Program-made: the position numbers and the translations under genes
Notes under the pieces: generated by a model
Seen by the model: the letters and a program-made list of their open reading frames with translations, nothing else
What the model was told of the DNA's origin: nothing
The model's database searches: none
Shown: positions 14,471 to 31,020 of the stretch, piece after piece
Layout of the letters: every line of letters begins with the position of its first letter
Numbering within the stretch: position 1 is the stretch's first letter
NCBI RefSeq assembly: GCF_900243075.1
Contig: NZ_OEZH01000118.1
Location: forward strand, 1 to 34,952
Reading direction: 5' to 3'
Length of the DNA: 34,952 nt
Source of the DNA: Clostridioides difficile
Lineage (GTDB): Bacteria; Bacillota; Clostridia; Peptostreptococcales; Peptostreptococcaceae

Positions 14471-14485
14471 GACCTTTTGGTATGC

Positions 14486-14647: not shown

Positions 14648-14649
14648 AC

Positions 14650-14973: not shown

Positions 14974-15564
14974 TTAAACTATTTGCAGCTTCTTTTCTTT
15001 TATAATACCTAAGATTAACATTATATAAATACAAACTATAGCTGAAGCTGGATACAATATATATTGATTATAAATATTGTGTAAGAACAAAAATAATATA
15101 GTTCCAAAGCTAAAACTTACTAAAATTCTTACTATTTTTTTATAACTAGCCACGTCTATACTAGATAAAGTCTTCTCTCTATGCTCCATAGGTGCAATCT
15201 TAAATATACCTATACATGACATAAACATTAATAAAATTATAGTCCACTCTAAATTATTATAATATACATATTTTAAAATAATAATATTAATTATGTAGAC
15301 TAAAAGAAATACCAATAAGCATTTAAAATGATTTTCAGCATGATACCCCCCAGTAAACTGCCTTATTGTACAGTAAACTAGTAAGAATAATACAGTTTCT
15401 ATAAATTTACTTAATATTATACTGACAAGTAAAATTACTAATATATTTATAATCAAAGCTATTAATGTTTCAAAACCATATAGATATAACTCATACTGAT
15501 TAAGTTTAATTGATTTATTATCAAGTAAAAATAAGGTGGCTTTTCGTGCTAATGACTTAATCAT
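14974..15564 (-). CDS. agrB: AgrB-family pheromone-processing protease
   Basis: Integral-membrane cysteine endopeptidase that cuts the C-terminal tail off AgrD and helps form the cyclic signal. It has 196 residues with about 5-6 hydrophobic spans. The signature RQFTGGYHAENHFKC is present, with His75 and Cys82 spaced as the catalytic His/Cys pair of AgrB proteins. GGAGAGAG precedes the ATG. It is the last gene of an A-C-D-B ordered operon, 29 nt after agrD. This resembles the four-gene agr2-type loci described in C. difficile, but the strain-level match is not verified. Confidence 0.93.
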   Translation of the reverse strand: MIKSLARKATLFLLDNKSIKLNQYELYLYGFETLIALIINILVILLVSIILSKFIETVLFLLVYCTIRQFTGGYHAENHFKCLLVFLLVYIINIIILKYVYYNNLEWTIILLMFMSCIGIFKIAPMEHREKTLSSIDVASYKKIVRILVSFSFGTILFLFLHNIYNQYILYPASAIVCIYIMLILGIIKEKKLQIV

Positions 15565-15593
15565 AACTACTTTACTCTCTCCATAGTGTTGGA

Positions 15594-15740
15594 TTATCTT
15601 TTAATTTTGAATTCTTTTATACTTTCAGGTTCTTTGCCTTGATAAGATATCCATGGTGAAGCTGTATTTGCAGATATAAATAATGTACAAACAGCTAAAT
15701 TACCTAATACACCTATTATAATTTTCTTCATATTTTTCAT
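15594..15740 (-). CDS. agrD: AgrD-type autoinducer peptide precursor
   Basis: 48-residue precursor of a cyclic quorum-sensing peptide. GAGGAGGAATAGTTT precedes the ATG. It has the AgrD layout: a basic, hydrophobic N-terminal helix (MKNMKKIIIGVLGNLAV...), a core around NTASPWISYQG, and a charged tail KEPESIKEFKIKR. The core contains no Cys; the only Cys is residue 18, in the helix. Alignment of YQGKEPES with the tail of other AgrD proteins puts Ser28 where the ring-forming Cys normally sits, predicting a Ser28-Pro-Trp-Ile-Ser32 lactone. It lies directly upstream of agrB. That it is an agrD is nearly certain from position and layout; the exact ring is an inference. Confidence 0.88.
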   Translation of the reverse strand: MKNMKKIIIGVLGNLAVCTLFISANTASPWISYQGKEPESIKEFKIKR

Positions 15741-15858
15741 AAACTATTCCTCCTCAAGTACTTTATTCACATAAATCTCAGTTATTTTTTATTATTATAA
15801 ATATAACATAATCATTGAATCTTATGATATAAAATCCACAACTGGACAATTTAACTAC

Positions 15859-17175
15859 CTAACTGGACAATTTTCCAATAGGTATGTATATTAAAATCTC
15901 AAATTTATCATTTGGAGTATTTATTTTTATATAACCATTATATTTTTCAACTGAATACCTTACACTACTTAGGCCTATACCATGAAAAAATTTATCTTTC
16001 TTATCTGTAGTGATTTTAAGATTATTAATTTTAACTTCATTAAATCTAGAATTTTCGCATTTTATTACATAAAATTTATTAACTAAAGTTGCTCTCAATT
16101 TAATATACTTAATCATACCTTCATTAGCCTTACTACATGCTTCTATTGCATTGTCAATTATGTTAGCAAATATAATACATATATCATCTGGTTTAATAAA
16201 CAATTCTTCATTCAACTTTATATCTATTGATAAGTTTATATTCTCAACACTACACTTATTGTGTTTTTCTCTTAATATTGCATCTAGAACTATATTCCCT
16301 GTATTATATATATATTGATTTTCTAGTACCCTTTCTTCTAAATTCTTCACATATTCTTCATAAATTTCACAATCATTTGGCAAACTTTTTAACGTATTTA
16401 TATGGTTATTTATATCATGATGTAAATGTCTTATCTTTTTCTGATAACTTACCAAACTAGAATAATACTTATATTGAATATTTATATTATTTTTCATTAT
16501 TGAATTTTCAACTTCTAATCTATTAAGTCTTATTACTTTCGAAATAACAACTATAATAGATATATTTGACATCATTAAAATAATAGAAATTAAGAATATA
16601 ACTACTGATTCCTGAAAATTAAATTTTTGATCTTTAAAAACTAAGAAAAAAATTACTATGAAGCTTCCTACATTAGCAACTATAGGAATTATAATATTTA
16701 TTGTATCTTTTTTATTTATAGATAAACTAAAATTCTTAAACTTTATAAAATATACAATGATAAATAACAATGCTTTAGTTAGTAAAATCAATTCTAAACG
16801 TTGATATGTATTATGTAATAAAACATTAAAGTCACTATTTTGATTTATGAGTATAATGATTCCTGATGATATAGTATCTAGACCCATAAAAACCATATAA
16901 AAGATTAAACTTGCAAACACACTTTTTATTAAACTCACTTGATAATTATACTTATAGAAAAATATTGCAAGAAATATGTTAATTAGTAATTTTAAATTTT
17001 CATTAGTTTGAATAACATTTAAAATAAAAATTATAATAATTGAAGCAATCAAATTAAGTAATGTAATTGTTTCACTTTTTTTTGACATATCTAATTTATC
17101 TAGTAGATATTTTAATATAATCCAATCTATACTCGTAGAAATTAAATTAATTATCTTCCAAACTATGCTTAACAT
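15859..17175 (-). CDS. agrC: AgrC-like sensor histidine kinase
   Basis: Membrane sensor for the AgrD-derived peptide. The 438 residues carry 6-7 hydrophobic spans in the first 220, then a coiled linker and the phosphoacceptor region HLHHDINNHINTLK (about residue 250). The GHKL ATPase domain follows, with DDICIIFANIIDNAIEAC (N box) and HGIGLSSVRYSVEKYNG (G box). This is the AgrC/ComD (HPK10) type. GGAGATATAAT precedes the ATG. The start overlaps the agrA stop by 7 nt, so translation is probably coupled. The next gene, agrD, is 118 nt downstream. Confidence 0.9.
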   Translation of the reverse strand: MLSIVWKIINLISTSIDWIILKYLLDKLDMSKKSETITLLNLIASIIIIFILNVIQTNENLKLLINIFLAIFFYKYNYQVSLIKSVFASLIFYMVFMGLDTISSGIIILINQNSDFNVLLHNTYQRLELILLTKALLFIIVYFIKFKNFSLSINKKDTINIIIPIVANVGSFIVIFFLVFKDQKFNFQESVVIFLISIILMMSNISIIVVISKVIRLNRLEVENSIMKNNINIQYKYYSSLVSYQKKIRHLHHDINNHINTLKSLPNDCEIYEEYVKNLEERVLENQYIYNTGNIVLDAILREKHNKCSVENINLSIDIKLNEELFIKPDDICIIFANIIDNAIEACSKANEGMIKYIKLRATLVNKFYVIKCENSRFNEVKINNLKITTDKKDKFFHGIGLSSVRYSVEKYNGYIKINTPNDKFEILIYIPIGKLSS

Positions 17176-17876
17176 ATTATATCTCCTAATATATCAGCTA
17201 ATCTGTCTCTTAAATTCTTTACTCTATATTTACTCACTGGTATCTCATTATTATTTATATATATTGTATTTCTAGTTAAAGATTGAATTTTTTCTAAATT
17301 TATAATATAACTTTTATGACATCTGAAAAAATTCAATCCTTTAAGTTCATTTTCAAGATTTGATATTGTATTTTTTGTGAGATATTCACGCTCTTCTGTA
17401 TATACATATAAATCCTTTCTTATTACTTCAATATATAATATTTCATTAATAGAAATATTATAATTTACATTTTTATAATTAAGTCTAATAAATCTTTTAT
17501 ATTTTGCTATATCCTTTATACAAGATTGTATTGCTTCCTTTAAATTCTTATATGATATTGGCTTTAATAAATATCGATATGCCCTAACCTTATATCCATC
17601 TTGTATATAATCTATCAAAGATGTTGTAAAAATTACCTCTGCCTTTATCTCTTTACTTCTTATTATCCTTGCTATATCCATGCCACTTAGCTTATTAAGA
17701 TCTATATCTAAAAAGAATATGTCAATATTATCTATATTCGCACCTAAAAGATCTTCTCCACAACTAAATGATATTACCTCAACATCTTTACCAGCTTCTT
17801 CGAATATCCTTACTATATTTTCAGCTAAAATTTTTCTTTGTTCTCTTATATCTTCTACAATACAGACTTTATACAT
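17169..17876 (-). CDS. agrA: AgrA-like LytTR response regulator
   Basis: Cytoplasmic response regulator, 235 residues. The receiver domain (1-120) has acidic Glu8/Asp9 in CIVED and phospho-acceptor Asp57 in FFLDIDLNKLSG. The LytTR DNA-binding domain (about 135-235) contains ILYIEVIRKDLYVYT and FFRCHKSYIINLEKI. I chose the ATG at 17876 because GGGGGATAGTC precedes it; a longer frame back to 17924 would start upstream of the extended -10 promoter. It is the first gene of the operon. It likely binds the direct repeats around 17957-17987 and autoregulates agr, and could also act on the adjacent peptide cluster. Confidence 0.9.
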   Translation of the reverse strand: MYKVCIVEDIREQRKILAENIVRIFEEAGKDVEVISFSCGEDLLGANIDNIDIFFLDIDLNKLSGMDIARIIRSKEIKAEVIFTTSLIDYIQDGYKVRAYRYLLKPISYKNLKEAIQSCIKDIAKYKRFIRLNYKNVNYNISINEILYIEVIRKDLYVYTEEREYLTKNTISNLENELKGLNFFRCHKSYIINLEKIQSLTRNTIYINNNEIPVSKYRVKNLRDRLADILGDIIC

Positions 17877-17903
17877 GACTATCCCCCTTTTACATCTTAT
17901 TCT

Positions 17904-17919
17904 TACTAGTATTATATCA
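17904..17919 (-). promoter_or_regulatory. Extended -10 promoter of agrA
   Basis: The minus strand reads TGATATAAT (-10 hexamer 17911-17916 with the upstream TG motif), giving a predicted start near 17904, 28 nt before the agrA ATG. A second TATAAT is at 17927-17932. The -35 is poor, as expected for an activator-dependent or extended -10 promoter. Confidence 0.5.
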
Positions 17920-17932
17920 GACATTCATTATA

Positions 17933-18087: not shown

Positions 18088-18753
18088 TTAATTTATAACC
18101 TGCCCATCTTTGATAGTTATTACTTTATCTGCCATCTTAGCTATTTCATTATTATGTGTTATCATAACTAAGGTTTGCTCAAATTCTTTAACACATACTT
18201 TTAAAATATCAATTACCTCATCTGTGGTTTTAGAATCTAAGTTACCAGTTGGCTCATCTGCAAATATTATAGAAGGTCTATTTGCAAGTGCTCTTGCTAT
18301 TGCTACTCTTTGTTGCTGCCCTCCTGATAATTCATTTGGAAATTTGCTAATGTGATTTTCTAGTCCAAGTTTATTTATTAAAATATCTATATATTTTGTA
18401 TCCACTTTTTTGTTACTAATAGAAACTGGAAGTATTATGTTATCATACACACTTATAACTGGTATCAGATTAAAGCTTTGAAATATAAATCCAAACTCTT
18501 CTCTTCTTATTTTTGATAGCTTGTCATCATTTAATGTGTACATATCTAAATCATCAATAAATATATTACCCTCAGTAGGCTTATCTAGCCCTGCCATTGA
18601 ATGAAGTAATGTAGATTTTCCAGATCCACTCTGTCCAACTATAGCCGTAAATTTATGAGGTTGAATCTCTAAACTTATATTATTAATCGCTATAACCTCA
18701 TTATTACCTTTACCATATATCTTTTTTAAATTAGATACCTTTAATAACTTCAT
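18088..18753 (-). CDS. ABC transporter ATP-binding protein (LolD/MacB type)
   Basis: Cytoplasmic ATPase of 221 residues. Walker A is GQSGSGKS (40-47), with Q-loop FIFQSFNLIPVISVYDNI, signature LSGGQQQRVAIARAL, Walker B IIFADEPTGNLD and the His switch in MITHNN. The TGNLDS and FNLIP motifs are typical of ATPases that pair with FtsX-type permeases. No membrane segment is present, and the only FtsX-type permease nearby is at 21718-24372, so this is its likely partner although two genes lie between them. AAAGGAG precedes the ATG. Expected roles are peptide immunity, efflux or sensing. Confidence 0.88.
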   Translation of the reverse strand: MKLLKVSNLKKIYGKGNNEVIAINNISLEIQPHKFTAIVGQSGSGKSTLLHSMAGLDKPTEGNIFIDDLDMYTLNDDKLSKIRREEFGFIFQSFNLIPVISVYDNIILPVSISNKKVDTKYIDILINKLGLENHISKFPNELSGGQQQRVAIARALANRPSIIFADEPTGNLDSKTTDEVIDILKVCVKEFEQTLVMITHNNEIAKMADKVITIKDGQVIN

Positions 18754-18942
18754 ATGTATACTCCTTTCCTTAAATTCAACCTATATTGTTTAGTTAAAAT
18801 ATAAAATTTTTATACTTATTTAATAGTTGTTATTTTATTATGGGGATGATATTAATTATATATTATTAATCCACCTTTTTAAGTTTTGTACCTATCTTCT
18901 CTTTAATTATTTATTCACATTAAATTTTCATCAGTACTTATT

Positions 18943-19953
18943 TTAGTTTAAGTATTTCCTTATTATTATCTTTAGTAAATTTAAATCCGATAAATTATAG
19001 ATATAAATATCTTTATAATTTATATCTATACTAAATTCATTGTTTATATACTCTAAAAATTCATACGCATTATATAATCCTATATTAGTTAAATTATTTA
19101 TAATACCATATTTTTTTATATCAGGTAATTTCACATTACTTGAAAACTTATTATTAATAATATTTAATACTCTTTCTTCAATATTATGAACATCTTCATA
19201 TTTAATATTTTTATGATTTTGAAATTTAATTTTATTATCTTTGATATTGGATATTTTTTTAATATTTAAGCTCTTTTCACTTTGACTATTTTTTTTAAGA
19301 ATTCTCTCTAATTCTTTAAACTCTATATAGTTGTATTTTTTTATTAAGTTAGCTATAATACCTGTTGCCACCGCACATGACTTACTATTTCTCCCAAAAT
19401 GAGTAATCTTCTTATTAAAACTTAGAAAAATATCTTTACTATTTGTGTACATTTTTACTTTTTCACCTGCTCTATAAATATAATCATTTTTATAAAAAAT
19501 ATATTCATGACCACAAACTCCAATAACAGAATCAAATACAGTCGGAATACTATCACAATCTGATTTTTTATTATGTTTTGAACATATTAAGAATTTATTT
19601 TTATTTTGTAGTTCCTTACAAACATCCCTAAGTTCTTTCTCATAGCTATAATCAAATGTTGATGCTGACAAATTAATCAAATCAATATCAGAATTAATTA
19701 ATTTTTTTAAAACTATTACTATATTTAAAGAATATGTTTTTCCTAGTTCATCAAATATTTTAATAGGATATAGTTCAACATCTTTACATATATCTATAAT
19801 AGTTTTTGAAACAAGAGTTCCATGTCCATTTGAATCTCTAACATCTAAATCGTTATTTAATTGAAATCTTTCATCTATATGGTAAAAATTTTTAAGCTCT
19901 TCATCATCTATATCTATCCCTGTATCAACTACTGCTATCTTTACTTTTCTCAA
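18943..19953 (-). CDS. Subtilisin-like (S8) protease fused to a degenerate acyl-carrier-like domain
   Basis: 336-residue protein with no signal peptide, hence probably cytoplasmic. The S8 catalytic triad is visible: Asp10 in VVDTGID, His44 in DSNGHGT and Ser192 in SKSCAVATG, with a likely oxyanion Asn128. The last ~80 residues (about 258-336) look like an acyl carrier protein: NLTNIGL, YEFLEYINNEFSIDI, DIYIYNLSDLNLLKIIIRKYL. The position of the phosphopantetheine Ser (GLDSL in ACPs) reads GLYNA, so it cannot carry the cofactor in the usual way. The gene starts with TTG overlapping the exporter's TGA; GGAGGGG is 7 nt upstream. The protease is a good candidate for leader removal from the precursor at 24501-24689. 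The ACP-like part may be a docking module. Acyl-carrier-related proteins are known from memory in other clostridial Cys-rich peptide systems; this was not checked. Confidence 0.8.
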   Translation of the reverse strand: MRKVKIAVVDTGIDIDDEELKNFYHIDERFQLNNDLDVRDSNGHGTLVSKTIIDICKDVELYPIKIFDELGKTYSLNIVIVLKKLINSDIDLINLSASTFDYSYEKELRDVCKELQNKNKFLICSKHNKKSDCDSIPTVFDSVIGVCGHEYIFYKNDYIYRAGEKVKMYTNSKDIFLSFNKKITHFGRNSKSCAVATGIIANLIKKYNYIEFKELERILKKNSQSEKSLNIKKISNIKDNKIKFQNHKNIKYEDVHNIEERVLNIINNKFSSNVKLPDIKKYGIINNLTNIGLYNAYEFLEYINNEFSIDINYKDIYIYNLSDLNLLKIIIRKYLN

Positions 19954-21698
19954 TGTACATCCCCTCCACTACACTGTAGACTATAATCTCCTCCTAAAAT
20001 AATAAGTTCTTCATCAGATCCAGATTCGGCTACTTGCCCATCTTTTATAACATAAATATTGTCTGCATCTTTTATAGTTGAAAGCCTATGAGCTATTATA
20101 ATTACTATTTTGTCCTTTATAACTTCTTTCATATTTTTCATAATTTCTTTTTGGGATATATTATCAAGAGAGGATGTGGATTCGTCAAATACTAATATAT
20201 CACTGTTCCCAGCCAATGCTCTAGCCATTGCTATACGTTGTTTTTGACCTCCTGACATTTTAACTCCCTTTTCTCCTACTATAGAATAAAGTCCATCCTC
20301 AAGACTCTCAATAAAATCCTTCATTCCAACTATATTGCATATACTTAGTATTTCTTCATCTTCTATATTTTTTCCTAGTGATATGTTGTCCCTTATAGTA
20401 TTATCAAAAATCAGTACATCCTGTGTTACTACATTTATATTCTTTCTAAGAAATGCTAAATTTACATTTTTTATGTTTATACCATTTATAGTAATTTCTC
20501 CTTCTGATACATCCCATAACCTATATATTAAATTAGATATTGTCGACTTTCCACATCCACTCCCTCCAACAATTGCAGTTGTTTTACCCTTAGAAAAACT
20601 TAAATTAACTCCATTTAATACTTGATTATCCTTATCACTATATTTAAAATATACATTTTTAAATTCAATATTCTCTATAGGCTTATGCTCTAAATTTGAA
20701 CCAAATATATTTGATTTTAGTGGCGAAAATATTTCTATAGGTTCATCTATTATAGAATATATACGATCTATAGATACCTTTACCTGCTCAATCTTATTAG
20801 CAGATCTTATTATGTTTATACAAGGATTTACTAGCATACCTGTATATTGCTGAAATGCAATAAGTTCTCCTATCGATAATTTTCCACTTATTATCTTATA
20901 TCCACCATATCCATATATAGTTGCACTTATCATTCCACTTAAAATTTTAGATATAGATATGTTGCTGACCATAATTAAATTAATAATCATATTCTTCTCA
21001 ATTATAGATTTCATTTGTTTTATATATCTCTTTAAAAATATTTTTTTTGATTTTGATATAACAACATTCATTATATTAGAAATATATTCTTGAGAAATAT
21101 TAGCTAGATTTCCATCTAAATTTCTTATTTCTCTTGTCATTTTTGAAATAAGTTTTCTTATCTTACTTTGCGATAATATTAGTAATATTTGAAGAATAAC
21201 AACTATAAAAAGCATATCCTTGCTCATCATAAATAAAAAATATACAGAACAAATAGCTGTTATAAAATTCATAATTATAGAAAATAATAATTCTGCATTA
21301 AATCCTTCCACTATATACAAATCTTGTTCTACTATTGAAAAGATATTTCCTGACTTTATGTTTGAGAAATATTTTCCTGAGAGTTTAGATAGGTGATGAA
21401 AAAGTTTAATTTTAAATGAACTTGTAACTTTATTTTTCATAACATTATAAAGGTATTCTAAAATAATATCTATAATAGCTGAAGAAAATACAATAATTAA
21501 GTATATAATAATTAAATTTAAAAGGAACTTGTAATCTTTAGCCATTATACCCTCATCTACTATTTTTCTTGTAATTTTAGGTAAATATAAACTCATACAA
21601 GAAGATACTATGACAAGAAAAAAAGATATAGATAATTTTAGTTTGTTCTTACTAATTATAAATTTTAAAAAACGTTTTAAGTTTTTATCTTTTTTCAT
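19950..21698 (-). CDS. ABC exporter, fused membrane and ATPase domains
   Basis: Peptide-export-type half-transporter, 582 residues. The N-terminal ~310 residues carry six hydrophobic spans. The ATPase domain shows Walker A VGGSGCGKST (about residue 380), signature MSGGQKQRIAMARAL, Walker B ILVFDESTSSLD and the switch His in IIAHRLSTI. There is no N-terminal C39 peptidase domain, so leader removal must come from elsewhere, most simply the S8 protease that overlaps its 3' end by 4 nt. I chose the ATG at 21698, with AGGAGG 6 nt upstream; a TTG one codon earlier is too close to the RBS. It probably exports the mature modified peptide. Confidence 0.9.
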   Translation of the reverse strand: MKKDKNLKRFLKFIISKNKLKLSISFFLVIVSSCMSLYLPKITRKIVDEGIMAKDYKFLLNLIIIYLIIVFSSAIIDIILEYLYNVMKNKVTSSFKIKLFHHLSKLSGKYFSNIKSGNIFSIVEQDLYIVEGFNAELLFSIIMNFITAICSVYFLFMMSKDMLFIVVILQILLILSQSKIRKLISKMTREIRNLDGNLANISQEYISNIMNVVISKSKKIFLKRYIKQMKSIIEKNMIINLIMVSNISISKILSGMISATIYGYGGYKIISGKLSIGELIAFQQYTGMLVNPCINIIRSANKIEQVKVSIDRIYSIIDEPIEIFSPLKSNIFGSNLEHKPIENIEFKNVYFKYSDKDNQVLNGVNLSFSKGKTTAIVGGSGCGKSTISNLIYRLWDVSEGEITINGINIKNVNLAFLRKNINVVTQDVLIFDNTIRDNISLGKNIEDEEILSICNIVGMKDFIESLEDGLYSIVGEKGVKMSGGQKQRIAMARALAGNSDILVFDESTSSLDNISQKEIMKNMKEVIKDKIVIIIAHRLSTIKDADNIYVIKDGQVAESGSDEELIILGGDYSLQCSGGDVH

Positions 21699-21717
21699 CA
21701 ATTACCTCCTAAAAGTT

Positions 21718-24372
21718 TTATATATCGTCTATCTGATCAACTATGTTTTTGCTAAGTCTTCTAAATGTTAACGCTACTGCTAACAAACATATTAAGATAG
21801 TAACTATGATAAATATTAATGTAGGATACATAGGTAGAATATACCAAGAACCACTATATTCTATATGCTTATGCTCTGACATTCTTTTTAACATACTTGA
21901 TAACTTTACTCCATAATTAAATATAAAAATTAGCCCTAATATAGAAGAAAATATTCCATAAATTAATCCCTCTCTAATTAATATACCTTTTAAGTCTTTT
22001 AATGAAAGACCTATTGATCTCATAATTCCAAATTCTTTTCTTCTAACTTCAATACTTGTAATAACACTAAAAAATATATTTATTGATGCTGTAAATGCAA
22101 ATAACATACTATTAAAAAGTTCTCTTACTGTATTTATCCATCTATATTGAGTTATCTCTTTCTCTATACTACTTCTATCATCATATTTAATTGATTTATT
22201 ATCTTTTACTCTATTTTCTATGCTTTCTTTTACAGTTTCTAATTTATCTGGATTTACTTTAATTTTAACTTCATCATAAGTATTTTCTCCCGTTATCTTC
22301 TTAAAGTCAGAAGAATCCATAACTGTATCAGGATAATTCGATAAACCTTCGTTCACTCCCTCCCATTTATCACTTAGGAACCCTACTACTTTAACTTTAA
22401 CAGTTTTATACACAAGCTTACCATTCTCTTGCATTGAAATTTTCACATCAATTATATCTCCTAGCTTGTATTTTTTATTGGCATCTACTAAGTTTCTACT
22501 TCCACTAGACCAATCTTCTATCTTATTAAAAATAACAACCTCTGGAATGTCTCTATTTGGTGCAAACATTTGCCCTTTTTCTATTAATCCTTTATAATCA
22601 TTTAAAAGATTTTTTGATGCATCTTCATTAATGCTAAGTAAGTCTATTCCATAATCTATTTCTTTATCTTTTCCATTTAAAAACATCGTTGTTTTCATAG
22701 CCTTTGATAAATCTTTTGTATTTAATCTAGAGAATGCTACTCTTCTCTTTACTGAATAAATACTCTCTATACCATCTATATTGTTTAGCTCATTTATCTC
22801 TTTCTCTGTGATTCCTCTTCCTAAAATAGAATCTGATCCAATATAATTTAAGTCTATATCATAATCGCCTAATTTTAAAAGTAATGGATTGTTGTCAACT
22901 AAACTACTTTGATTATCTATAAATATACTTACTATGTATAACCCTGACATGGCAACTAGTATTCCTGTTGTGATTATATACACTAAATTTCTCTTTGAAT
23001 TTTTCATCGCTAACTTCATTTTTATGTATTTTGAATTATACATTTTCATATTTCTATTATTATGTTTTATATTGTCAGAATATTTATATACAATACTAGT
23101 TACTTTGTTTTTCATTTTTTTATAAATTTTTAATTTAGACAATACTTTATTCTCTATCCTTAAATCAAACTTTAATTTACCTGATATCATATCTATAGGA
23201 TATGACATAATAATTGATAGAACTGGTACTATTGTAGATACTATAAACATATAAGTTATCGTTTTAATTGTATTTGTTATAGATTTTGTAGTTATTAAAA
23301 TAGGTGCTTTCCTAGGATCAATCAACATACTTGAATCAAAATTCATGTACCTTATCATAAAAACAGACAATATACATCCTAATAAAAAACCTATTGTTAA
23401 TCCAGTTATTAGTGTAATTAGATTTTTTATAAAAAGTAGAATAAATGACTGTTTTTTGCTCATTCCTACAATCCTTAAAAGACCTATTTCTCTTATAATT
23501 TCTCTAGACATAATGCTAAATACATTAAAAATTATAACTAGTGACGCTATTATTATCCCTTTATCAAATTTATCAAGAGTGGTTAAACTCGAGGAATTAT
23601 CTGATAAGGCCATTTGTCTATCTTCATTTATAGTTAATTGGCTTTTTGTAGATGTGAGCTCACCCTGAAGTTTATTAGTTTTTGATGTGTAACCTTTAAA
23701 TCCATTTTTTAAATTTATATATCCATTATATGTAATTGCCACACTAGGATAATCAAAATCGCTATGTACATATACACTAAATCCATCATCTTTATAACGC
23801 TTCATCATTTGACTAAAATCATATACACCAACTATTTTAAAGTTTTGCGTCTCATCTAAAAGAACTTCTTCTTCTTTGTTGTTTTGATATTCTTTTATAT
23901 ATCTAAAATCAACATATATTTCTTTGAATTTATTATCATCTGGCATATTTATCTTACCTTGTGATTTTAATAATTCAAAAAAACTAAGGTCAATAATTAC
24001 TTCATTTTTACCTCTAGGATAATGTCCATATATTAGAGTGTTTTTAAGCTCTTTGAATGAGTCACTATTATAACTCTCTAATTTATAAAAATTTTGTTCT
24101 GTTTTTATATCTCCGTAGTATTTTGATACTATTGTATTTTTAATATCTTCACTGTTTTTAATTATATCTAAATCTCTTTTACTTACATTTTTAAACTTTG
24201 CTTGATAATCCGCCATTTGCTTTACAGTTTCTTTTACAACATAATTAGATTGACTGTTTTTCGAAACTTTATTAGCAAATATAATCATTGTACATACAGC
24301 AATTGCAAAAACTATAATAAAAAATTTATTTCTATTTTTTATAAAATATCCTTTTAACAGCTTAGTCATCAT
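21718..24372 (-). CDS. Large FtsX/MacB-type ABC permease
   Basis: Membrane protein of 884 residues in two FtsX-like halves. One hydrophobic span near the N-terminus is followed by an extracellular region of about 230 residues. Three clustered spans follow (REIIREIGLLRIVGMSKKQ is a typical FtsX cytoplasmic loop). A second N-terminal-type span lies near residue 470, then another large extracellular region, and three final spans around EVRRKEFGIMRSIGLSLKD. GAGGT precedes the ATG at 24372; an upstream in-frame ATG at 24420 would fall inside a perfect palindrome and lacks an RBS. Such permeases act with LolD-type ATPases in antimicrobial-peptide resistance or sensing. Here it is probably self-immunity or transport for the cluster's own product. 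Confidence 0.85.
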   Translation of the reverse strand: MMTKLLKGYFIKNRNKFFIIVFAIAVCTMIIFANKVSKNSQSNYVVKETVKQMADYQAKFKNVSKRDLDIIKNSEDIKNTIVSKYYGDIKTEQNFYKLESYNSDSFKELKNTLIYGHYPRGKNEVIIDLSFFELLKSQGKINMPDDNKFKEIYVDFRYIKEYQNNKEEEVLLDETQNFKIVGVYDFSQMMKRYKDDGFSVYVHSDFDYPSVAITYNGYINLKNGFKGYTSKTNKLQGELTSTKSQLTINEDRQMALSDNSSSLTTLDKFDKGIIIASLVIIFNVFSIMSREIIREIGLLRIVGMSKKQSFILLFIKNLITLITGLTIGFLLGCILSVFMIRYMNFDSSMLIDPRKAPILITTKSITNTIKTITYMFIVSTIVPVLSIIMSYPIDMISGKLKFDLRIENKVLSKLKIYKKMKNKVTSIVYKYSDNIKHNNRNMKMYNSKYIKMKLAMKNSKRNLVYIITTGILVAMSGLYIVSIFIDNQSSLVDNNPLLLKLGDYDIDLNYIGSDSILGRGITEKEINELNNIDGIESIYSVKRRVAFSRLNTKDLSKAMKTTMFLNGKDKEIDYGIDLLSINEDASKNLLNDYKGLIEKGQMFAPNRDIPEVVIFNKIEDWSSGSRNLVDANKKYKLGDIIDVKISMQENGKLVYKTVKVKVVGFLSDKWEGVNEGLSNYPDTVMDSSDFKKITGENTYDEVKIKVNPDKLETVKESIENRVKDNKSIKYDDRSSIEKEITQYRWINTVRELFNSMLFAFTASINIFFSVITSIEVRRKEFGIMRSIGLSLKDLKGILIREGLIYGIFSSILGLIFIFNYGVKLSSMLKRMSEHKHIEYSGSWYILPMYPTLIFIIVTILICLLAVALTFRRLSKNIVDQIDDI

Positions 24373-24411
24373 ATTTATCACTACCTCATTATAAATTTTA
24401 TATTTCAAAAT

Positions 24412-24449
24412 AATATACATTATGATATTTAAATATCATAATGTATATT
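24412..24449 (-). promoter_or_regulatory. Perfect 38-nt palindrome between precursor and permease genes
   Basis: The two halves, aatatacattatgatattt and its reverse complement, meet with no loop (19 bp each). It lies 51 nt after the precursor stop codon and before the permease RBS. The following minus-strand sequence (attattttg) is only weakly T-rich. It may be an mRNA 3'-end or partial terminator that keeps precursor mRNA abundant, or a protein-binding site. Confidence 0.6.
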
Positions 24450-24500
24450 GCTTCAAAATATAAATCAAGAAATTTAAGTAATTATTTATTGTTCTATGTT

Positions 24501-24689
24501 TTAATACTTAACAGAAGCTTCAGGACTTAGGAATGGCCAAGTTCCACAGTCTTTATCACAGTCTTCTTCATGCAGTAGACCATGCTCTTCCCAATATACT
24601 TTACATGGATCTGCATTTATCTCCATATCTTTAACCTCTATTTTATTTATTATTTTATTTACTTTAAGTTCATCATTTAATTTTTTCAT
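24501..24689 (-). CDS. Candidate ribosomal peptide precursor with three Cys
   Basis: 62-residue gene product directly after three radical SAM genes and before transporter genes, the usual place for a RiPP precursor. The N-terminal half is charged and Lys-rich (leader-like). The C-terminal half carries Cys29, Cys44 and Cys48 with acidic neighbours (EEDCDKDCGTW), followed by PFLSPEASVKY. Cys near Asp, Glu or Thr suits thioether-forming SPASM enzymes of the sactipeptide/ranthipeptide type. GGGG lies 9 nt before the ATG. I do not recognise a named family with certainty; the clostridial Cys-rich peptide groups are the closest idea. The cleavage site is unknown, though DMEINADP before Cys29 is a plausible boundary region. 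Confidence 0.75.
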   Translation of the reverse strand: MKKLNDELKVNKIINKIEVKDMEINADPCKVYWEEHGLLHEEDCDKDCGTWPFLSPEASVKY

Positions 24690-24815
24690 CTCATTTTTCC
24701 CCTTTTTAATTAATATTTTTTATTTGCTTTATATCTTTTTTTAATCTGCTCATAAATTTCTTAATAAATATCTTGTAATATAATTTATAATTAAAAAGTT
24801 ATAACTTTTAATTAT
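24690..24815 (-). other. Leader region of the precursor gene
   Basis: 126-nt spacer between the third radical SAM gene and the precursor. It holds an AT-only near-palindrome, attaaaaagttataactttt plus aat, at 24790-24812, right after the radical SAM stop codon. That could act as a weak terminator, and no clear separate promoter is visible. Confidence 0.4.
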
Positions 24816-26039
24816 CTAAATGTTAATTATTTCTTTAATTTTATTACAATTATGAGTAAATAAATCATCATCATTAACTAAAGTATCCATAATTGATAAA
24901 CAATTATTACAGAAAAATTTATTTTTGCAGTCTTTACATTTAAAATAATTTAAAGTACTTAGTTTCTCTATCTTTTTATATACTTTTAATTCTTTATTAA
25001 AGATGTTTGAAACAAAAGAACTATCTATTTTAATTGCATCTATCATCTTATATTTACTATCTCTTAATAATGAACAGGGATAAACATCTCCTTTATAATC
25101 AATATAAATTTGAGTTATTCCAGGCTTACATGTATGACATCTTAGATAAGGTTTATAATCAATGTTTGGTATAAACATAATATCTTTTTCATTACTTAAG
25201 TAAACTTTATTATACTCTCCTCTTCCCATCCTAATAAAGTATCTACTTACAGCTTTAAGTTCTTTATCTTCACAAAACTTATTAAACTTATCGACAGTAT
25301 TATAATTATGTTCTCCAAGTACCATGGAGAGACTAATATTTCTAAATTTTTTCTTTTTTAATAAATCTATACTATGATTAATTTTGTCAAAAGTTCCTTT
25401 CCCTCTTACACTATCACAACTTTCTTTATCGTATCCATCTATACTTATATCTATTGCATAAAGGTTACTAGTAAGCTTATCTACTATGCTTTCATCTATC
25501 AATGTTGCATTTGTCATAAGCTGTACCTTAGTTTCATAATTATCTTTTATATACTTAAGAATATCTAAAAAATCCCTTCTCATTAGAGGCTCTCCACCTG
25601 TTAGAATTAATTTTTTCGGCTTTAATTTCATAATATTGCGAATTATTCTGATAACTGTATCATAGTCAATTTCTTCGTTTTTATCTATATGGGAATCCAT
25701 ACTACAAAAATTGCATTTTAAATTACATTGTTCTGTCAAAGCAAATGTTACTTTTTCTAATCTATTTAAAACTGCTTTTTCTATATAACAAGTTGATAAC
25801 AAATCCATATTATCAAGATTTTTTAGTATTTTTTTATAATATATTTTATCATCTTCATCTTCATAAAATTTAATTGTGTCTCCAACTAATATCTTATTCT
25901 CATAAGAATAATTTATCGTATCCATACATATTTTAGGTATTTTAATCCAATCACCTGTCATCTTATTTCCTATATAGGCAATATGCTTTTCTTCTGAAAT
26001 TTGAGCTATATCTTTAATAAAATATTTATTATAATGCAC
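24816..26039 (-). CDS. Radical SAM/SPASM peptide-modifying enzyme 3
   Basis: 407-residue [4Fe-4S] enzyme. An N-terminal ~95-residue region (KIPKICMDTINY...ILKNLDNMDLL) may be a precursor-recognition domain. The radical SAM core carries CNLKCNFC, LTGGEPLMR and the SAM-binding strands. The C-terminal SPASM-type region is Cys-rich (CHTC, YPCSLL, CKDCKNKFFCNNC, HNC), for auxiliary clusters. It is paralogous to the enzyme at 27083-28360 (SVRGKGTFDKI versus KVRGNGVFNKV; ISLSMVLGEHN versus ISLSMVFGVNN). Translation starts at GTG, overlapping the previous gene by 11 nt, with a G8 tract as its ribosome binding site. Likely substrate is the three-Cys peptide immediately downstream. Confidence 0.88.
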   Translation of the reverse strand: MHYNKYFIKDIAQISEEKHIAYIGNKMTGDWIKIPKICMDTINYSYENKILVGDTIKFYEDEDDKIYYKKILKNLDNMDLLSTCYIEKAVLNRLEKVTFALTEQCNLKCNFCSMDSHIDKNEEIDYDTVIRIIRNIMKLKPKKLILTGGEPLMRRDFLDILKYIKDNYETKVQLMTNATLIDESIVDKLTSNLYAIDISIDGYDKESCDSVRGKGTFDKINHSIDLLKKKKFRNISLSMVLGEHNYNTVDKFNKFCEDKELKAVSRYFIRMGRGEYNKVYLSNEKDIMFIPNIDYKPYLRCHTCKPGITQIYIDYKGDVYPCSLLRDSKYKMIDAIKIDSSFVSNIFNKELKVYKKIEKLSTLNYFKCKDCKNKFFCNNCLSIMDTLVNDDDLFTHNCNKIKEIINI

Positions 26040-27072
26040 CTAATTCCCCCCCCTTAAGTAACTTATTATATGTTCTTAAATTTACACTCATAAGATTACA
26101 GTTAATTATTGATGGTTCATAATATTTCCCATTTGCCATATAATTAATTAATTTACATTTATTACCCATACAGTACTCTTTAGCACTACAAGTTTTACAA
26201 GGTTCACTTTCTTCAAACCTCTCATAAAATAGCTCTAATGAATATTCTTTATCTATACAGTCATCATTATATACAGTTCCTATTCGGAATTTTTCATTTC
26301 CAATTACAAAGGTACAAGGGTATATCCCCCCATCTTCAGATATAGTAAAAGAAACTATTCCTCCAAAACAATCAGATTGTTTCTCACATAGCCTCTCTTG
26401 ATTTATCATTGATACTCTCAGGTCTTTATACTTATTATCACAAATCATTCTATCTATTTCTGATTCTAAAACATCAATATCTTCTTTAGTCCATGTAGTA
26501 TCATAAAAATCTGCAACTGGTACAAAATTCTTTATCCCTAAACTTGATAATTCTAAAATTCCTTTATATAATTCTGAAACAGTTAAAGATCTATATGTTA
26601 ATCTACATCTAATATTTATTTCATTCTGTATTAGTTTAGCTACATTCTTGTACACGATATCATAGGAACCTTTTCCACTTTCAAACCTCCTATATTTATC
26701 ATGTGTACATTTAGTTCCATCAACACTTACTGAAAGTGCTATGTTATTTTCTTTTATGTAATTGATAATTTCTTGACTTATTACTGTCCCATTTGTTGTC
26801 ATCATATAACTAATTTTATATTTATATTTTAACTCATTATCTAATCTCTCTTTTATATGCCTTATTAAATCAAATTTTAGTAAGGGTTCTCCTCCATGAA
26901 ATACAACTTTATGTGATTCATTTATGTTTTTTCTAGCACGAATAGATTTGATTATAAAATCTATAGTTTTATCGCATACTTCAACTGACATATCTTGATA
27001 TTTTTTATTTTCTTCGTAGCAGTAATCACATCTTAAGTTACATTTAGATGTAACAATTATAGTAAAATTCAT
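26029..27072 (-). CDS. Radical SAM/SPASM peptide-modifying enzyme 2 (anSME-like)
   Basis: 347 residues. The radical SAM motif Cys11/Cys15/Cys18 (CNLRCDYC) is very near the N-terminus, so it lacks the recognition-like domain of its two neighbours. Further motifs are FHGGEPLLKFD, MMTTNGTVI and SVDGTKCTHDKYR. The SPASM region has CFGG, IYPCTFVIG and CKTCSAKEYCMGNKC. The HGGEPLL signature and size recall anaerobic sulfatase-maturating enzymes and related thioether synthases, a different branch from enzymes 1 and 3. The gene follows enzyme 1 by 10 nt; its last codons (KGGELGAL) lie in the G8 tract. It may need enzyme 1 or 3 to recruit the precursor. Confidence 0.88.
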   Translation of the reverse strand: MNFTIIVTSKCNLRCDYCYEENKKYQDMSVEVCDKTIDFIIKSIRARKNINESHKVVFHGGEPLLKFDLIRHIKERLDNELKYKYKISYMMTTNGTVISQEIINYIKENNIALSVSVDGTKCTHDKYRRFESGKGSYDIVYKNVAKLIQNEINIRCRLTYRSLTVSELYKGILELSSLGIKNFVPVADFYDTTWTKEDIDVLESEIDRMICDNKYKDLRVSMINQERLCEKQSDCFGGIVSFTISEDGGIYPCTFVIGNEKFRIGTVYNDDCIDKEYSLELFYERFEESEPCKTCSAKEYCMGNKCKLINYMANGKYYEPSIINCNLMSVNLRTYNKLLKGGELGAL

Positions 27073-27082
27073 TATACTTTAT

Positions 27083-28360
27083 TTACCCCCATACAATAGC
27101 TTCTAAATTTTCCTTTGTAAGATCGCACCAAAAGTCAATTTCATTATTTTTTTTTGCATTTATAAAATCAGCTGGGCAATTCCAACAAAATAAATTTATA
27201 TCACAAATTTCACATTTTGTTCCTTTATAATCCAAAACATTCAAAAATTCTCTTTTTAATACTCCCATTCTATTTTTAACATATTCAATTTTAATATTTT
27301 CTTTAGCTAGATTTATTATCTTATACTCATCTAAATTTAAAGATGGACAAGGGTAACAATCTCCATTTGCATCTATGTATAAACTATTTTCAAATGCATC
27401 ACATGCACAGGTATTAATTCTTGTGCTATTCGTTTTAGTTTTATCATTATATATATTTGCAATTAACATAGGAAATTTCACATCTCCATTATTAAATAAC
27501 TCTTTATTTTGATAACCTCTTCCCTTTGGAATAAATGCTCTAACGATTGGAGTTGTGCCTAGTTTTTGATTCAACTCTATAAATTCATCTTTCATATTAG
27601 TATTGTTCACTCCAAAAACCATAGAAAGAGAAATATCATTAACACCATTCTTTTTCAATAAATATACACTCTTTATAACCTTATTAAAAACACCATTACC
27701 TCTTACTTTAGAACAACTATCTTCATCAATTCCATCAACACTTATATCAACACAATTAAATAATTCTTTAATCATTACAACATTATTTTCATTTATTAAC
27801 GTCCCATTTGTAGAAAGTGAAAATTTAGTATTTTTAAGTAATGTCTTTGCATATCTAATTATCTCTTCAAAATCATGTCTTAAAAGCGGCTCTCCGCCAG
27901 AAAAAACAATCCTTTTAGGATTAGTTTCTTTTAAATTTAATATTATATTTTTAATTTCATCAGTTCCCAATGTATCTTCTCCATCTGGTTCACAATTACT
28001 TGAGCAATGTTTACATTTTAAATTGCATCTATTTGTTAGTAAAAGATGAACTGATCTAAAGTTAAGATTGTTTATTTTACTAAGTTCAATATTGTAATTC
28101 TCATTCTTAATAAAACCTACTTTTTTTAACATCACCATTAACTCTCTAATATAGATTTTGTCATCTTTATTTTCAAAACAATTTATAAAACTAGATTCAT
28201 CTAATTTTAACTTTTCTGCGCTTACTATATAATTTAAAACTTCATCACTTACAAATATCTTTCTTTTTGATATTTTATCGTATATAAAATGCATATTATT
28301 TTTATGCTTTATAATCTTGTTTTTGTAATCAAGTTCTATAGTATTATCAGTATTCAACAT
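27083..28360 (-). CDS. Radical SAM/SPASM peptide-modifying enzyme 1
   Basis: 425 residues, first gene of the cluster. An N-terminal ~105-residue region (FVSDEVLNYIVSAEKLKLDE...MLKKVGFIKNE) looks like a winged-helix, RRE/PqqD-type peptide-recognition domain, though this is judged by eye. The radical SAM core has CNLKCKHC, FSGGEPLLRHDF and LSTNGTLI. The SPASM region has CACDAF, GDCYPCPSL and CEICDINLFCWNC. AGGGGTAGTTTGTT precedes the ATG. It is a paralogue of enzyme 3, so the cluster seems to have grown by duplication. It is separated by 1.1 kb from the next gene upstream; no consensus promoter was found. Confidence 0.88.
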   Translation of the reverse strand: MLNTDNTIELDYKNKIIKHKNNMHFIYDKISKRKIFVSDEVLNYIVSAEKLKLDESSFINCFENKDDKIYIRELMVMLKKVGFIKNENYNIELSKINNLNFRSVHLLLTNRCNLKCKHCSSNCEPDGEDTLGTDEIKNIILNLKETNPKRIVFSGGEPLLRHDFEEIIRYAKTLLKNTKFSLSTNGTLINENNVVMIKELFNCVDISVDGIDEDSCSKVRGNGVFNKVIKSVYLLKKNGVNDISLSMVFGVNNTNMKDEFIELNQKLGTTPIVRAFIPKGRGYQNKELFNNGDVKFPMLIANIYNDKTKTNSTRINTCACDAFENSLYIDANGDCYPCPSLNLDEYKIINLAKENIKIEYVKNRMGVLKREFLNVLDYKGTKCEICDINLFCWNCPADFINAKKNNEIDFWCDLTKENLEAIVWG

Positions 28361-28645: not shown

Positions 28646-28683
28646 CACGAATACCCATATCTAAGAAGATATGGGTATTCGTG
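28646..28683 (-). terminator. Strong 17-bp hairpin upstream of the peptide cluster
   Basis: Perfect stem cacgaatacccatatct (28646-28662) with its complement (28667-28683) and loop aaga. On the minus strand it is followed by gaatttatc, only a weak T tract. It is adjacent to copy C of the terminator-linked repeat, as in copies A and B, so it is likely the 3' end of a minus-strand RNA. It would insulate the cluster from upstream transcription. Confidence 0.6.
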
Positions 28684-29319: not shown

Positions 29320-29372
29320 AAAATCAAAATAAGGATACAAATTAATTTTATATTATCTTGTATCCTTATTAT
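29320..29372 (-). terminator. Terminator downstream of the 77-residue gene
   Basis: Stem aataaggataca (29328-29339) with tgtatccttatt (29359-29370) and a 19-nt loop. T-rich sequence follows on the minus strand (ttattttgattttg). On the plus strand tagtttttt follows a little later, so it could also end a plus-strand RNA. Confidence 0.7.
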
Positions 29373-29461
29373 CTAGTTTTTTAAATGTTTATCATGGATA
29401 TACTTTATGTTACATTAATCCATTTTATAATATTAATTCTTGAACCAAGCATACATGACCC

Positions 29462-29695
29462 TTACAATGCATATCTTATACCCTCTGTAGAGTTATGACA
29501 GTTGATGAACCTGAAGAAATTACCCTTACAAGACATATCTGATACAACCTCACTTATAAGTTTATATGTTTCAGAAGTATATAAATAACCCATACTTACT
29601 TCCAAATTCTTAACTGTTTTCTTAGAAAATTCTAATATGATTTCCTTACATAGCGGTTGTAACAGTGTCTTATTAGATTTCATAAAACTATACAT
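29462..29695 (-). CDS. Small hypothetical protein, 77 residues
   Basis: I do not recognise a family. The predicted product is soluble, with a helical N-terminal half (KSNKTLLQPLCKEIILEFSK), then YTSETYKLISEVVSDM and a C-terminal CKGNFFRFINCHNSTEGIRY. AGAGG lies 4 nt before the ATG at 29695 and 12 nt before an in-frame ATG at 29683, so the start is ambiguous. A terminator follows at 29320-29372. Its 3' half is duplicated at 14486-14647, which argues that it belongs to a mobile or shuffled accessory segment. It lies next to an XRE regulator operon and may be part of the same module. Confidence 0.6.
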   Translation of the reverse strand: MYSFMKSNKTLLQPLCKEIILEFSKKTVKNLEVSMGYLYTSETYKLISEVVSDMSCKGNFFRFINCHNSTEGIRYAL

Positions 29696-29909: not shown

Positions 29910-30122
29910 CTATTCTTCTTCAATAAATTCAAACAAATTTTCTACTGTAGTATCGAATACTTTAGCGATATCCATAGCTAACTTCAAAGAAGGATTATAT
30001 TTCCCATTTTCTAAGTGTACAATAGTCTCACGTCTTACCCCAACCAATTTAGCAAGTTCATTTTGCGTCATAAGGAGTTTTTCTCTGTATTCTTTAATTT
30101 TTGTTTTCATCAATATTGCCAC
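29910..30122 (-). CDS. XRE/Cro-type helix-turn-helix regulator
   Basis: Small DNA-binding protein of 70 residues, essentially a single XRE domain: [40 protein letters not shown], then [22 protein letters not shown]. This size and C-terminal motif are typical of stand-alone regulators co-transcribed with small membrane proteins. The GTG at 30122 follows the stop codon of the membrane-protein gene directly; an in-frame ATG at 30110 is an alternative, but no good RBS sits before it. The regulator probably acts on the 20-bp inverted repeat at 31036-31082 that overlaps the operon promoter. Partial copies of this gene occur at 30565-30606 and 14650-14763. Confidence 0.85.
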
Positions 30123-30539
30123 TTAGTTACATATCCCCCTTTTATCAAAGTATATATACAACACTAATTTAGATAAAGACTGTATAAATAAAACTGCAAT
30201 GAGGATTATACCTGTATCTAGGTTTGATATATTTATATTACTTGTATAAGGTGTTGCAAAGAAAATAGATATTATTACTATAGAATATATCATTATTTTT
30301 ATTGCAATCTTATTAACCTTTGATAGTATAAATTCAGATGATTCATCAACTAAATCATTATATTTTTTATTATAAATTGAATAACATCCAAAAACTATTA
30401 ACCAACTCAACCCTGGAAGAGAAGCAGTGCTTGGACCTTTAAAAATATACTTAGTGGCTAATACAGCTATAAAAAAATAAGTTATTACAAGCAACTCCAG
30501 GATAAGCTTTGATCTTACACCAGTTTCTGATTTAGACAT
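30123..30539 (-). CDS. Small multi-span membrane protein, copy 2
   Basis: 138 residues with four predicted hydrophobic spans and a conserved cytoplasmic-looking stretch YNKKYNDLVDESSEFILSKV. It is a clear paralogue of the protein at 30607-31020: same start MSKSE.GV....SELL, same YNKKYNDLVDE, same end LSKLVLYIYFDKRGICN. AAGGAGTGATTTTAT precedes the ATG. Its stop codon abuts the XRE gene. Small membrane proteins of this general kind (DUF2178-like, by memory) pair with XRE regulators in many Firmicutes; the function is unknown, and a sensor or inhibitor of the regulator is one possibility. Confidence 0.8.
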   Translation of the reverse strand: MSKSETGVRSKLILELLVITYFFIAVLATKYIFKGPSTASLPGLSWLIVFGCYSIYNKKYNDLVDESSEFILSKVNKIAIKIMIYSIVIISIFFATPYTSNINISNLDTGIILIAVLFIQSLSKLVLYIYFDKRGICN

Positions 30540-30564
30540 ATAAAATCACTCCTTAAAAATTATA

Positions 30565-30606
30565 TTCTCTATACTCTTTAATTTTCGTTTTTATCAATAT
30601 TATCAC
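30565..30606 (-). pseudogene. Remnant of a deleted XRE gene start
   Basis: The minus strand retains gtgataatattgataaaaac and the next ~20 nt, matching the start of the intact XRE gene (30084-30122). It then jumps directly into the next gene's RBS region. The original start ATG is now ATA. It shows that the ancestral two-gene unit was duplicated in tandem and that the inner XRE copy was deleted. Confidence 0.75.
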
Positions 30607-31020
30607 TTAGTTGCATATTCCCTTTCTATCAAAATGTATATACAAAATTAATTTAGATAAAGATTGTATAAATAAAACTGCTAACAGAATTACACCTATA
30701 TCCAAATTTGATATATCCAAACCTCTTGTATAATTTGCTGAAAAGAAAACAGCTATTACCAGAATAGAATATAACATTATTTTTGATGCAATCTGATCAA
30801 CCTTTAATAACATAAGTTTTGATGCCTCATCAACTAAATCATTATATTTTTTATTATACATGAAGTCACATGCCCAAAAAGCGAATAAAATTATAAAAGT
30901 AATCCAAATATCTTCCCCTTTAAAAATAAACTTTTTTAATAATAAGTCTATAAAAAAATAGGATATCATAAGTAACTCTGAAACAAGATTTGCTTTAACA
31001 CCAAGCTCTGATTTAGACAT
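30607..31020 (-). CDS. Small multi-span membrane protein, copy 1
   Basis: 137 residues with four hydrophobic spans, paralogous to the gene at 30123-30539 (YNKKYNDLVDEASKLMLLKV, NLDIGVILLAVLFIQSLSKL, FDRKGICN). Divergence is concentrated in the first 60 residues. It is the first gene of the operon. AAGGAGTGATTTTAT lies directly after one arm of a 20-bp inverted repeat that overlaps the promoter. Function unknown; probably a partner of the XRE regulator encoded at the end of the operon. Confidence 0.8.
   Translation of the reverse strand: MSKSELGVKANLVSELLMISYFFIDLLLKKFIFKGEDIWITFIILFAFWACDFMYNKKYNDLVDEASKLMLLKVDQIASKIMLYSILVIAVFFSANYTRGLDISNLDIGVILLAVLFIQSLSKLILYIHFDRKGICN

Follow-up and report, generated by a model that had tools for sequence, protein, structure and literature searches.

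A conserved, mobile RiPP cassette with three radical SAM enzymes and adjoining agr genes in Clostridioides difficile

Gene content of the locus

The window analyzed here is a stretch of 34,952 nucleotides from Clostridioides difficile (contig NZ_OEZH01000118.1 of assembly GCF_900243075.1), and it contains a gene cassette for a ribosomally synthesized and post-translationally modified peptide (RiPP), in which three SPASM-type radical S-adenosylmethionine (SAM) enzymes accompany a single short precursor. All of the genes lie on the minus strand and follow one another in the order RS1, RS2, RS3, precursor, FtsX-type permease, exporter, S8 protease, ATPase, LytTR regulator, GHKL kinase, AgrD and AgrB. 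RS1 (positions 27083-28360; 425 amino acids) has an N-terminal domain that resembles a RiPP recognition element (RRE) and an extra cysteine, Cys123, following its CxxxCxxC motif. RS2 (26029-27072; 347 amino acids) is a PapB-like enzyme without an N-terminal domain, and RS3 (24816-26039; 407 amino acids) is a paralogue of RS1 with the same RRE-like domain and serine replacing Cys123. The RS2 and RS3 genes overlap by 11 bp, and there are no internal stops in any of the three radical SAM matches. The precursor gene (24501-24689) encodes 62 amino acids with cysteines at positions 29, 44 and 48; the codons for Asp27-Pro28-Cys29 are located at 24603-24611 and those for the motif Cys44-x-x-Asp47-Cys48 at 24546-24560.

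Beyond the precursor are the FtsX-type permease (21718-24420; 900 amino acids as listed, with the true start probably some codons further in), an ATP-binding cassette (ABC) exporter with membrane and ATPase domains (19950-21701), a subtilisin-like S8 protease that retains the residues D10, H44 and S190 (18943-19953), and a LolD/MacB-like ABC ATPase, the presumed partner of the FtsX permease (18088-18753). A first-pass annotation, made from the DNA letters alone, had described three SPASM enzymes preceding a 62-residue, three-cysteine peptide, followed by an exporter, a protease, an FtsX-type permease and an ATPase, all between 18088 and 28360, and every one of these genes is present as described within that interval. 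The far end of the block lies elsewhere, since a complete agr quorum-sensing set at 14974-17924 belongs to it too: an AgrA-like LytTR response regulator (17169-17924), an AgrC-like GHKL sensor histidine kinase (15859-17175), an AgrD-family autoinducer peptide (15594-15740; TIGR04223, 37.2 bits versus a cut-off of 19) and AgrB (14974-15564; PF04647, 123.8 bits versus a cut-off of 23).

Distribution of the cassette

Of 71 genomes of the same family, 16 contain relatives of RS1 at E ≤ 1e-40, and four of eight genomes of the same genus do so at E ≤ 1e-30, the window's own genome being included in both counts. At E ≤ 1e-50, RS2 has relatives in 11 of 393 genomes of the same order, all 11 of which belong to the window's family. 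Plasmids supplied three cassettes, two from Paraclostridium sordellii and one from C. difficile, and all three plasmids come from gut or fecal isolates. We define a mapped cassette as an RS1-type enzyme together with RS2, the protease and the exporter, which gives 16 (the window, 12 loci from the family and the three plasmids); three of the 15 family loci were excluded, namely L035, which lies on a short contig, L037, which has an RS1 fragment, and L034, which is taken up below. A scan of public genome contigs with an RS2 alignment yielded at least 511 relatives, of which the best 80 were considered, the named hosts being a sample. At least 12 named loci, each combining several genes of the cassette, come from Ruminococcus, Velocimicrobium, Blautia, Lachnotalea, Eubacterium, unnamed Lachnospiraceae, Anaerocolumna and Paenibacillus. 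Judged by best hidden Markov model (HMM), four loci (L061, L064, L070 and L081, from Lachnospiraceae, Anaerocolumna, Eubacterium and Paenibacillus) combine two RS2-type enzymes with one of the RS1/RS3 type.

The single RS2 sequence, searched against the same public contigs, returned nothing, phages gave no match to RS1, and plasmids gave neither a near DNA match to the cassette nor a tblastn match to the window precursor. In IMG/VR the precursor alignment found nothing, and the matches listed for the RS2 alignment include only distant radical SAM enzymes of at most 35% identity. The open literature searched did not pair "CxxDC" with "radical SAM" or "three radical SAM enzymes" with "RiPP"; subscription papers and preprints fall largely outside that scope, and a prior description is possible. 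The putative bacteriocin element described in a survey of C. difficile elements is a different one (PMC6807378), and the ranthipeptide rule of a rumen survey is TIGR03973 (PMC13289728).

Precursor peptides

An HMM built from ten seed precursors, which represent eight of the 16 mapped cassettes, detects one or more precursors in every mapped cassette (E ≤ 6.3e-5), the other eight cassettes being independent finds, and several cassettes have two or three. In its own genome the window precursor is the only one at E ≤ 1. The enzymes and the precursor are conserved together, and the situation that the first-pass annotation had raised as a difficulty, a precursor absent or scrambled where the three enzymes stay, was not seen among the mapped cassettes. 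In the named relatives, precursors are seen as small cysteine-containing open reading frames (ORFs).

From the HMM hits and from small ORFs with at least two cysteines we picked 36 precursors by eye. The motif C-x-x-[D/N]-C is present in 35 of them, 33 with Asp, whereas 2000 shuffles of the cores gave it in 1.9 of 36 on average and never in more than 7. Seven copies or near-copies had been left out of this collection (the first peptide of L028, two of L053 and four of L054); six have the motif and one is without it, so that the total would be 41 of 43. The precursors of L059, L060 and L061 surfaced only through the motif search itself and are not among the 36. Exactly three cysteines are found in 22 of the 36. 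Gln or Asn occurs no more than six residues ahead of the first cysteine in 27 of 36, and this residue might mark the leader boundary.

Ten window-type precursors could be aligned, and I13, K16, E18, D27, C29, C44, D47 and C48 are invariant among them, such that a Cys-Xn-Asp/Glu motif, C44-x-x-D47, is found in the core of all ten. The leader probably comprises approximately residues 1-26, with the core starting at about Asp27. The acidic run EEDCDKDC and the CGT sequence, which had been suggested to favor thioether links to Asp, Glu or Thr, are not conserved as such, as the only invariant acids of the core are D27 and D47 and both the Glu residues and Thr50 vary. At E ≤ 0.1 there is no NCBIfam match to the window precursor, its sole Pfam match is below cut-off (Homez, E 0.027), and none of 11 precursors tested exceeds the cut-off of any NCBIfam model.

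The radical SAM enzymes

Approximately 100 residues precede the CxxxCxxC motif in RS1 and RS3, compared with 10 in RS2. The top NCBIfam model for RS2 is the PapB-type ranthipeptide maturase (NF047865; 196.7 bits, cut-off 340), which is matched by all 15 aligned RS2 members; models of other peptide maturases rank after it. Models of anaerobic sulfatase maturases give 103 bits, below the PapB score, and the label "anSME-like" previously attached to this enzyme gives way to PapB as the nearest family. RS2 also stays under the cut-offs of the SCIFF maturase model TIGR03974 (138.5 versus 425 bits) and of the QhpD model (131 versus 453 bits).

For RS1 and RS3 the nearest NCBIfam models are mycofactocin and StsB maturases, both far under their curated cut-offs (for the StsB sactisynthase, 98 bits for RS1 and 120 bits for RS3, cut-off 625), and the nearest structures in the PDB are CteB and SkfB. 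An alignment profile of RS1 and RS3 covers most of CteB and reaches part of its N-terminal domain, which a review terms an RRE (PMC8326336). We describe the N-terminal domain of RS1 and RS3 as RRE-like, not proven. Two paralogues with a recognition-like domain and a third enzyme without it had been proposed at the outset; the paralogy and the extension of about 100 residues hold, and the RRE identity is weak by profile.

All 35 RS1/RS3-type enzymes retain ten cysteines, from the SAM cluster and the SPASM region, and therefore none of these enzymes looks like a dead paralogue. A tree of these 35 enzymes contains a clade of nine RS1 and a clade of ten RS3 sequences from window-type cassettes, both with support of 100/99; two of the RS3 rows come from the excluded loci L034 and L035. 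Cys123, four residues past the SAM-cluster motif, is present in all nine RS1 of window-type cassettes and in none of the 26 other enzymes, and nine of ten RS3 have Ser at this position, which points to specialization of RS1 and RS3 after duplication. Two more residues differ between the clades (S38 in RS1 and Pro in RS3, H118 and Tyr). A further cysteine, RS1 residue 216, follows a DG-x-D-E-x-S stretch and is kept in 31 of the 35; the equivalent residue is not cysteine in the CteB and SkfB alignments.

The constant core of these cassettes is one enzyme with the RRE-like domain and one PapB-like enzyme without it. RS3 is found in eight of nine cassettes with window-type precursors, and beyond the window-type cassettes a single paralogue is the rule, although L030 and L056 have other pairs. 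Given the separate, well supported RS1 and RS3 clades in window-type cassettes, the third enzyme is an old duplication that has been kept. Three enzymes had been taken to suggest several distinct crosslinks or epimerizations, and we considered one crosslink per enzyme. It was rejected, as enzyme number does not track cysteine number: cassettes with two radical SAM enzymes (L024, L025, L032, L033, L036 and L051) also have three-cysteine precursors, and the L026 genome keeps a window-type precursor without an RS3 match at E ≤ 1e-40 other than its RS1. A division of labor between recruitment and catalysis, raised as the other option, fits an arrangement of two enzymes with a recognition-like N-terminal domain and one without.

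Protease and transporters

The S8 protease begins directly at its catalytic domain, with no signal peptide or propeptide visible by eye, and its Asp, His, Ser triad is kept in 17 of 17 aligned sequences and also in eight rows of a separate alignment. A region of about 100 residues at its C-terminus (residues ~225-336) has no Pfam match and may resemble an acyl carrier protein. QhpE was considered as an identity for the protease and dropped, since this best NCBIfam hit (77 bits, cut-off 165) is unspecific; the model picks up S8 proteases in 62 of the 71 genomes of the family, always below its cut-off. No peptidase domain is found among the Pfam matches of the ABC exporter. Protease and exporter occur in 16 of 16 cassettes, but both are part of the definition of a mapped cassette.

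FtsX is found in 15 of the 16, although L032 has it in pieces, and 12 cassettes have the ATPase. FtsX is the least conserved part: its identity to the window copy is only 22-27% in six other cassettes, compared with 64-77% for the cassette ATPase in five of those six; L029 has an additional ATPase of 35% identity outside its cassette. In 8 of 11 cases a window-type precursor is followed immediately by FtsX. Low conservation and position next to the precursor fit a partner in immunity or export that is specific to the peptide. On the C. difficile plasmid p_TW11, a gene for the lipid II flippase MurJ adjoins the cassette on the opposite strand (L051:8907-10430). MurJ was not found in the other cassette loci scanned, and this neighbor might hint that the target or the immunity involves lipid II.

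The genomic island and the agr genes

The block from agrB to RS1, approximately 15 kb, sits between 219-bp direct repeats that are 89% identical (14435-14653 and 29365-29583) and form the island boundaries; a related piece is found on contig C121 of the same genome. Part of a small ORF (29910-30122), by eye a helix-turn-helix regulator, is duplicated at the left edge of the island, where 14643-14764 is 95% identical to 29988-30111. Three regions of the same genus were compared, and the cassette is absent from this site in all three. Only one of them (G007) has clean, contiguous flanks with the ~15-kb block missing, and this genome carries its own window-type cassette at another place.

Response regulators related to that of the window are found in 11 of 16 cassettes, and pairs of AgrB and AgrD related to those of the window in five, the window included; three of these five supplied seeds for both profiles, and another one for the AgrB profile.

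Upstream of RS1, in a 1.1-kb stretch without a long ORF, there is a perfect inverted repeat with 16-bp arms (28646-28683), which has no Rfam match and is the only such site in the genome with up to three mismatches permitted. Rfam yielded nothing at gathering scores and ARAGORN no tRNA genes; promoter-like sites are at chance level (135 versus 131.8) and terminator-like sites near it (3 versus 1.4). Adjoining the helix-turn-helix-like ORF are two similar tandem proteins of 138 and 137 amino acids (30123-31020), membrane-type by eye, with no Pfam match at E ≤ 0.01.

Discussion

The locus is a real, conserved and mobile RiPP cassette with multiple radical SAM enzymes. We consider it probable, if well short of certain, that this quorum-sensing-linked cassette makes a secreted, thioether-crosslinked and likely antibacterial peptide, the chemistry and activity of which we infer from sequence. 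As the genes are linked, the agr set may sense cell density and its LytTR regulator may turn the cassette on. RS1 and RS3 would then bind the leader, with its invariant I-x-x-K-x-E, through their N-terminal domains, and RS2, which has no such domain, would be recruited in trans. PapB is reported to join Cys-Xn-Asp for n = 0 to 6, and the transposed order gave no product (PMC9413430). C44-x-x-D47 suits a PapB-like linkage and D27-P-C29 does not. RS2 therefore likely links Cys44 to Asp47, at the beta-carbon of the latter if its nearest family and the reach of PapB are a guide, and RS1 and RS3 likely recruit the leader and modify the rest of the peptide. The two might act as a pair, one mainly recruiting or positioning the peptide and the other modifying it around Cys29 or Cys48. 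The cytosolic S8 protease would cleave the leader near Asn25-Ala26/Asp27, the ABC exporter would secrete the core, and the FtsX permease with its ATPase may protect the producer or assist export. The interpretation given in the first-pass annotation thus survives in part, in co-conservation and the division of labor, and not in the crosslink count, the role of the acidic run and CGT, or the anSME label.

Known systems offer parallels. The two RRE-bearing radical SAM enzymes of thuricin CD (TrnC/TrnD) are reported to act as one complex in which only one strictly needs SAM chemistry (PMC12093266), and this pair is the closest precedent for RS1 with RS3. By that description, and if the RRE-like domains of RS1 and RS3 are recognition domains, the systems would share two radical SAM enzymes of this kind that serve short precursors; the window adds a third, PapB-like enzyme and has a C-x-x-D-C core. 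The likeness to freyrasin and PapA-PapB lies in RS2, whose nearest NCBIfam relative is PapB, and in the Cys-Xn-Asp motif of the core, whereas RS2 scores under the PapB cut-off, has no N-terminal domain and is paired with an RS1-type enzyme, the precursor has three cysteines and one C-x-x-D-C in place of the six CX3D motifs of freyrasin, and the cassette also encodes a protease, FtsX and the agr set. Steps of the same kinds are seen in the maturation of quinohemoprotein amine dehydrogenase, where one operon is reported to encode a radical SAM enzyme crosslinking Cys to Asp/Glu, a subtilisin-like protease acting on the leader in the cytosol, and an ABC exporter (QhpD, QhpE and QhpF; PMC7876137). 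There the substrate is an enzyme subunit, compared with a short peptide in the window, and the QhpD and QhpE models stay under cut-off. In the case of the SCIFF maturase CteB, the likeness is the profile alignment, part of the N-terminal domain included, set against scores below cut-off, several enzymes and a different precursor with no match to the six-Cys family.

A CXXX-repeat Cys-rich peptide of the AC3_0185 type (TIGR04118) at L139:9943-15112 lies beside a 708-residue radical SAM enzyme, an S8 protease and an ABC exporter, and the protease-exporter pair is therefore common to another kind of RiPP. That locus differs in its CXXX-repeat precursor and in the one radical SAM enzyme seen there. 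TIGR04118 has no match to the window precursor and none in its genome; one L057 precursor reaches E 0.0097, below cut-off.

Several observations weigh against the scheme proposed here. RS2 falls short of the PapB cut-off, so that its chemistry is not fixed by family. Asn replaces Asp at the motif position in two of the 36 precursors and one is without the motif, contrary to a strict Asp rule. At E ≤ 1e-40 the only match to RS3 in the L026 genome, which is listed as 100% complete, is its own RS1, yet a window-type precursor is kept there. In L034 an RS3-type enzyme occurs with exporter, ATPase and FtsX, and the stretch examined contains neither RS2 nor a protease nor a precursor. As regards the recognition domain, the match of the single RS1 sequence to CteB does not begin before residue 88, that to SkfB begins at profile position 95 and covers no N-terminal part, and the comparison with 30 PqqD-like proteins is weak (12% probability and p 0.0024 with all rows, p 0.0077 with the RS1 rows alone and 0.09 with those of RS3; four unrelated control alignments gave 0.16-0.52), a PqqD set spoiled by wrong-frame ORFs having given p 0.67. 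Four other S8 proteases of the window's genome outscore the cassette protease on the QhpE model. As for regulation, the same search did not find AgrB with AgrD in 11 of 16 cassettes, and a direct-repeat scan counted 35 LytTR-type sites over both strands where mononucleotide shuffles predict approximately 27 (13.65 per strand), so that none stands out.

Alternatively, each of the three enzymes might install its own modification, for example a Cys-Asp thioether, an alpha-carbon thioether and an epimerization, a reading to which the first-pass annotation inclined. All three keep their cluster cysteines, and the long divergence of RS1 and RS3, with clade-specific residues at positions 38, 118 and 123, suggests different jobs. 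However, the precursors of two-enzyme cassettes have the same number of cysteines and the same motif, which indicates that the enzymes are not one per crosslink, and L026 keeps its window-type precursor in the absence of RS3, leaving this a minority possibility that we nevertheless take seriously. Somewhat more doubtful is a product carrying alpha-carbon thioethers, as in sactipeptides, or carbon-carbon bonds, in either case made mainly by RS1 and RS3 with RS2 as an accessory. Here StsB and the mycofactocin maturases in NCBIfam and SkfB in the PDB are among the nearest relatives of RS1 and RS3, but those NCBIfam matches are far under the curated cut-offs, the 16 mapped and 12 named cassettes all combine RS2 with an enzyme of the RS1/RS3 type (L034, with RS3 alone, being the exception), and the invariant Asp beside Cys points to Cys-Asp chemistry.

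It is also conceivable, and in our estimate improbable to a similar degree, that the product is a signaling or metal-binding peptide and not a bacteriocin, as agr genes adjoin, C-x-x-D-C could bind metal and, transporters aside, no dedicated immunity family was seen among the cassette proteins scanned. Yet the patchy distribution over islands and plasmids resembles bacteriocin biology, the tandem precursor variants and poorly conserved FtsX partner look bacteriocin-like, and one plasmid cassette has a MurJ gene as its neighbor. Most speculatively, and on balance unlikely, the C-x-x-D-C cassettes could form a separate RiPP class with an obligate complex of leader-binding and leader-blind radical SAM enzymes, in which RS1, the duplicated leader-binding enzyme of the window's branch, with its gained and invariant fourth cysteine next to the SAM cluster (CX3CX2CX3C), performs a reaction unseen in known radical SAM peptide maturases, and the product is a compact knot of fused rings around Cys44-Asp47-Cys48, tied to Cys29.

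Returning to the secreted, probably antibacterial peptide that we favor, the analysis provides a sequence-defined set of RiPP cassettes across Peptostreptococcaceae plasmids, Lachnospiraceae, Ruminococcus and Paenibacillus, with precursors that, in the 11 tested, exceed no NCBIfam cut-off. Its natural comparisons, RS3 present or absent, RS1 and RS3 in one cassette, and tandem precursors, bear on why several radical SAM enzymes should serve one short peptide. Given that the three cassette plasmids come from gut or fecal isolates, the product may matter in competition within the gut.

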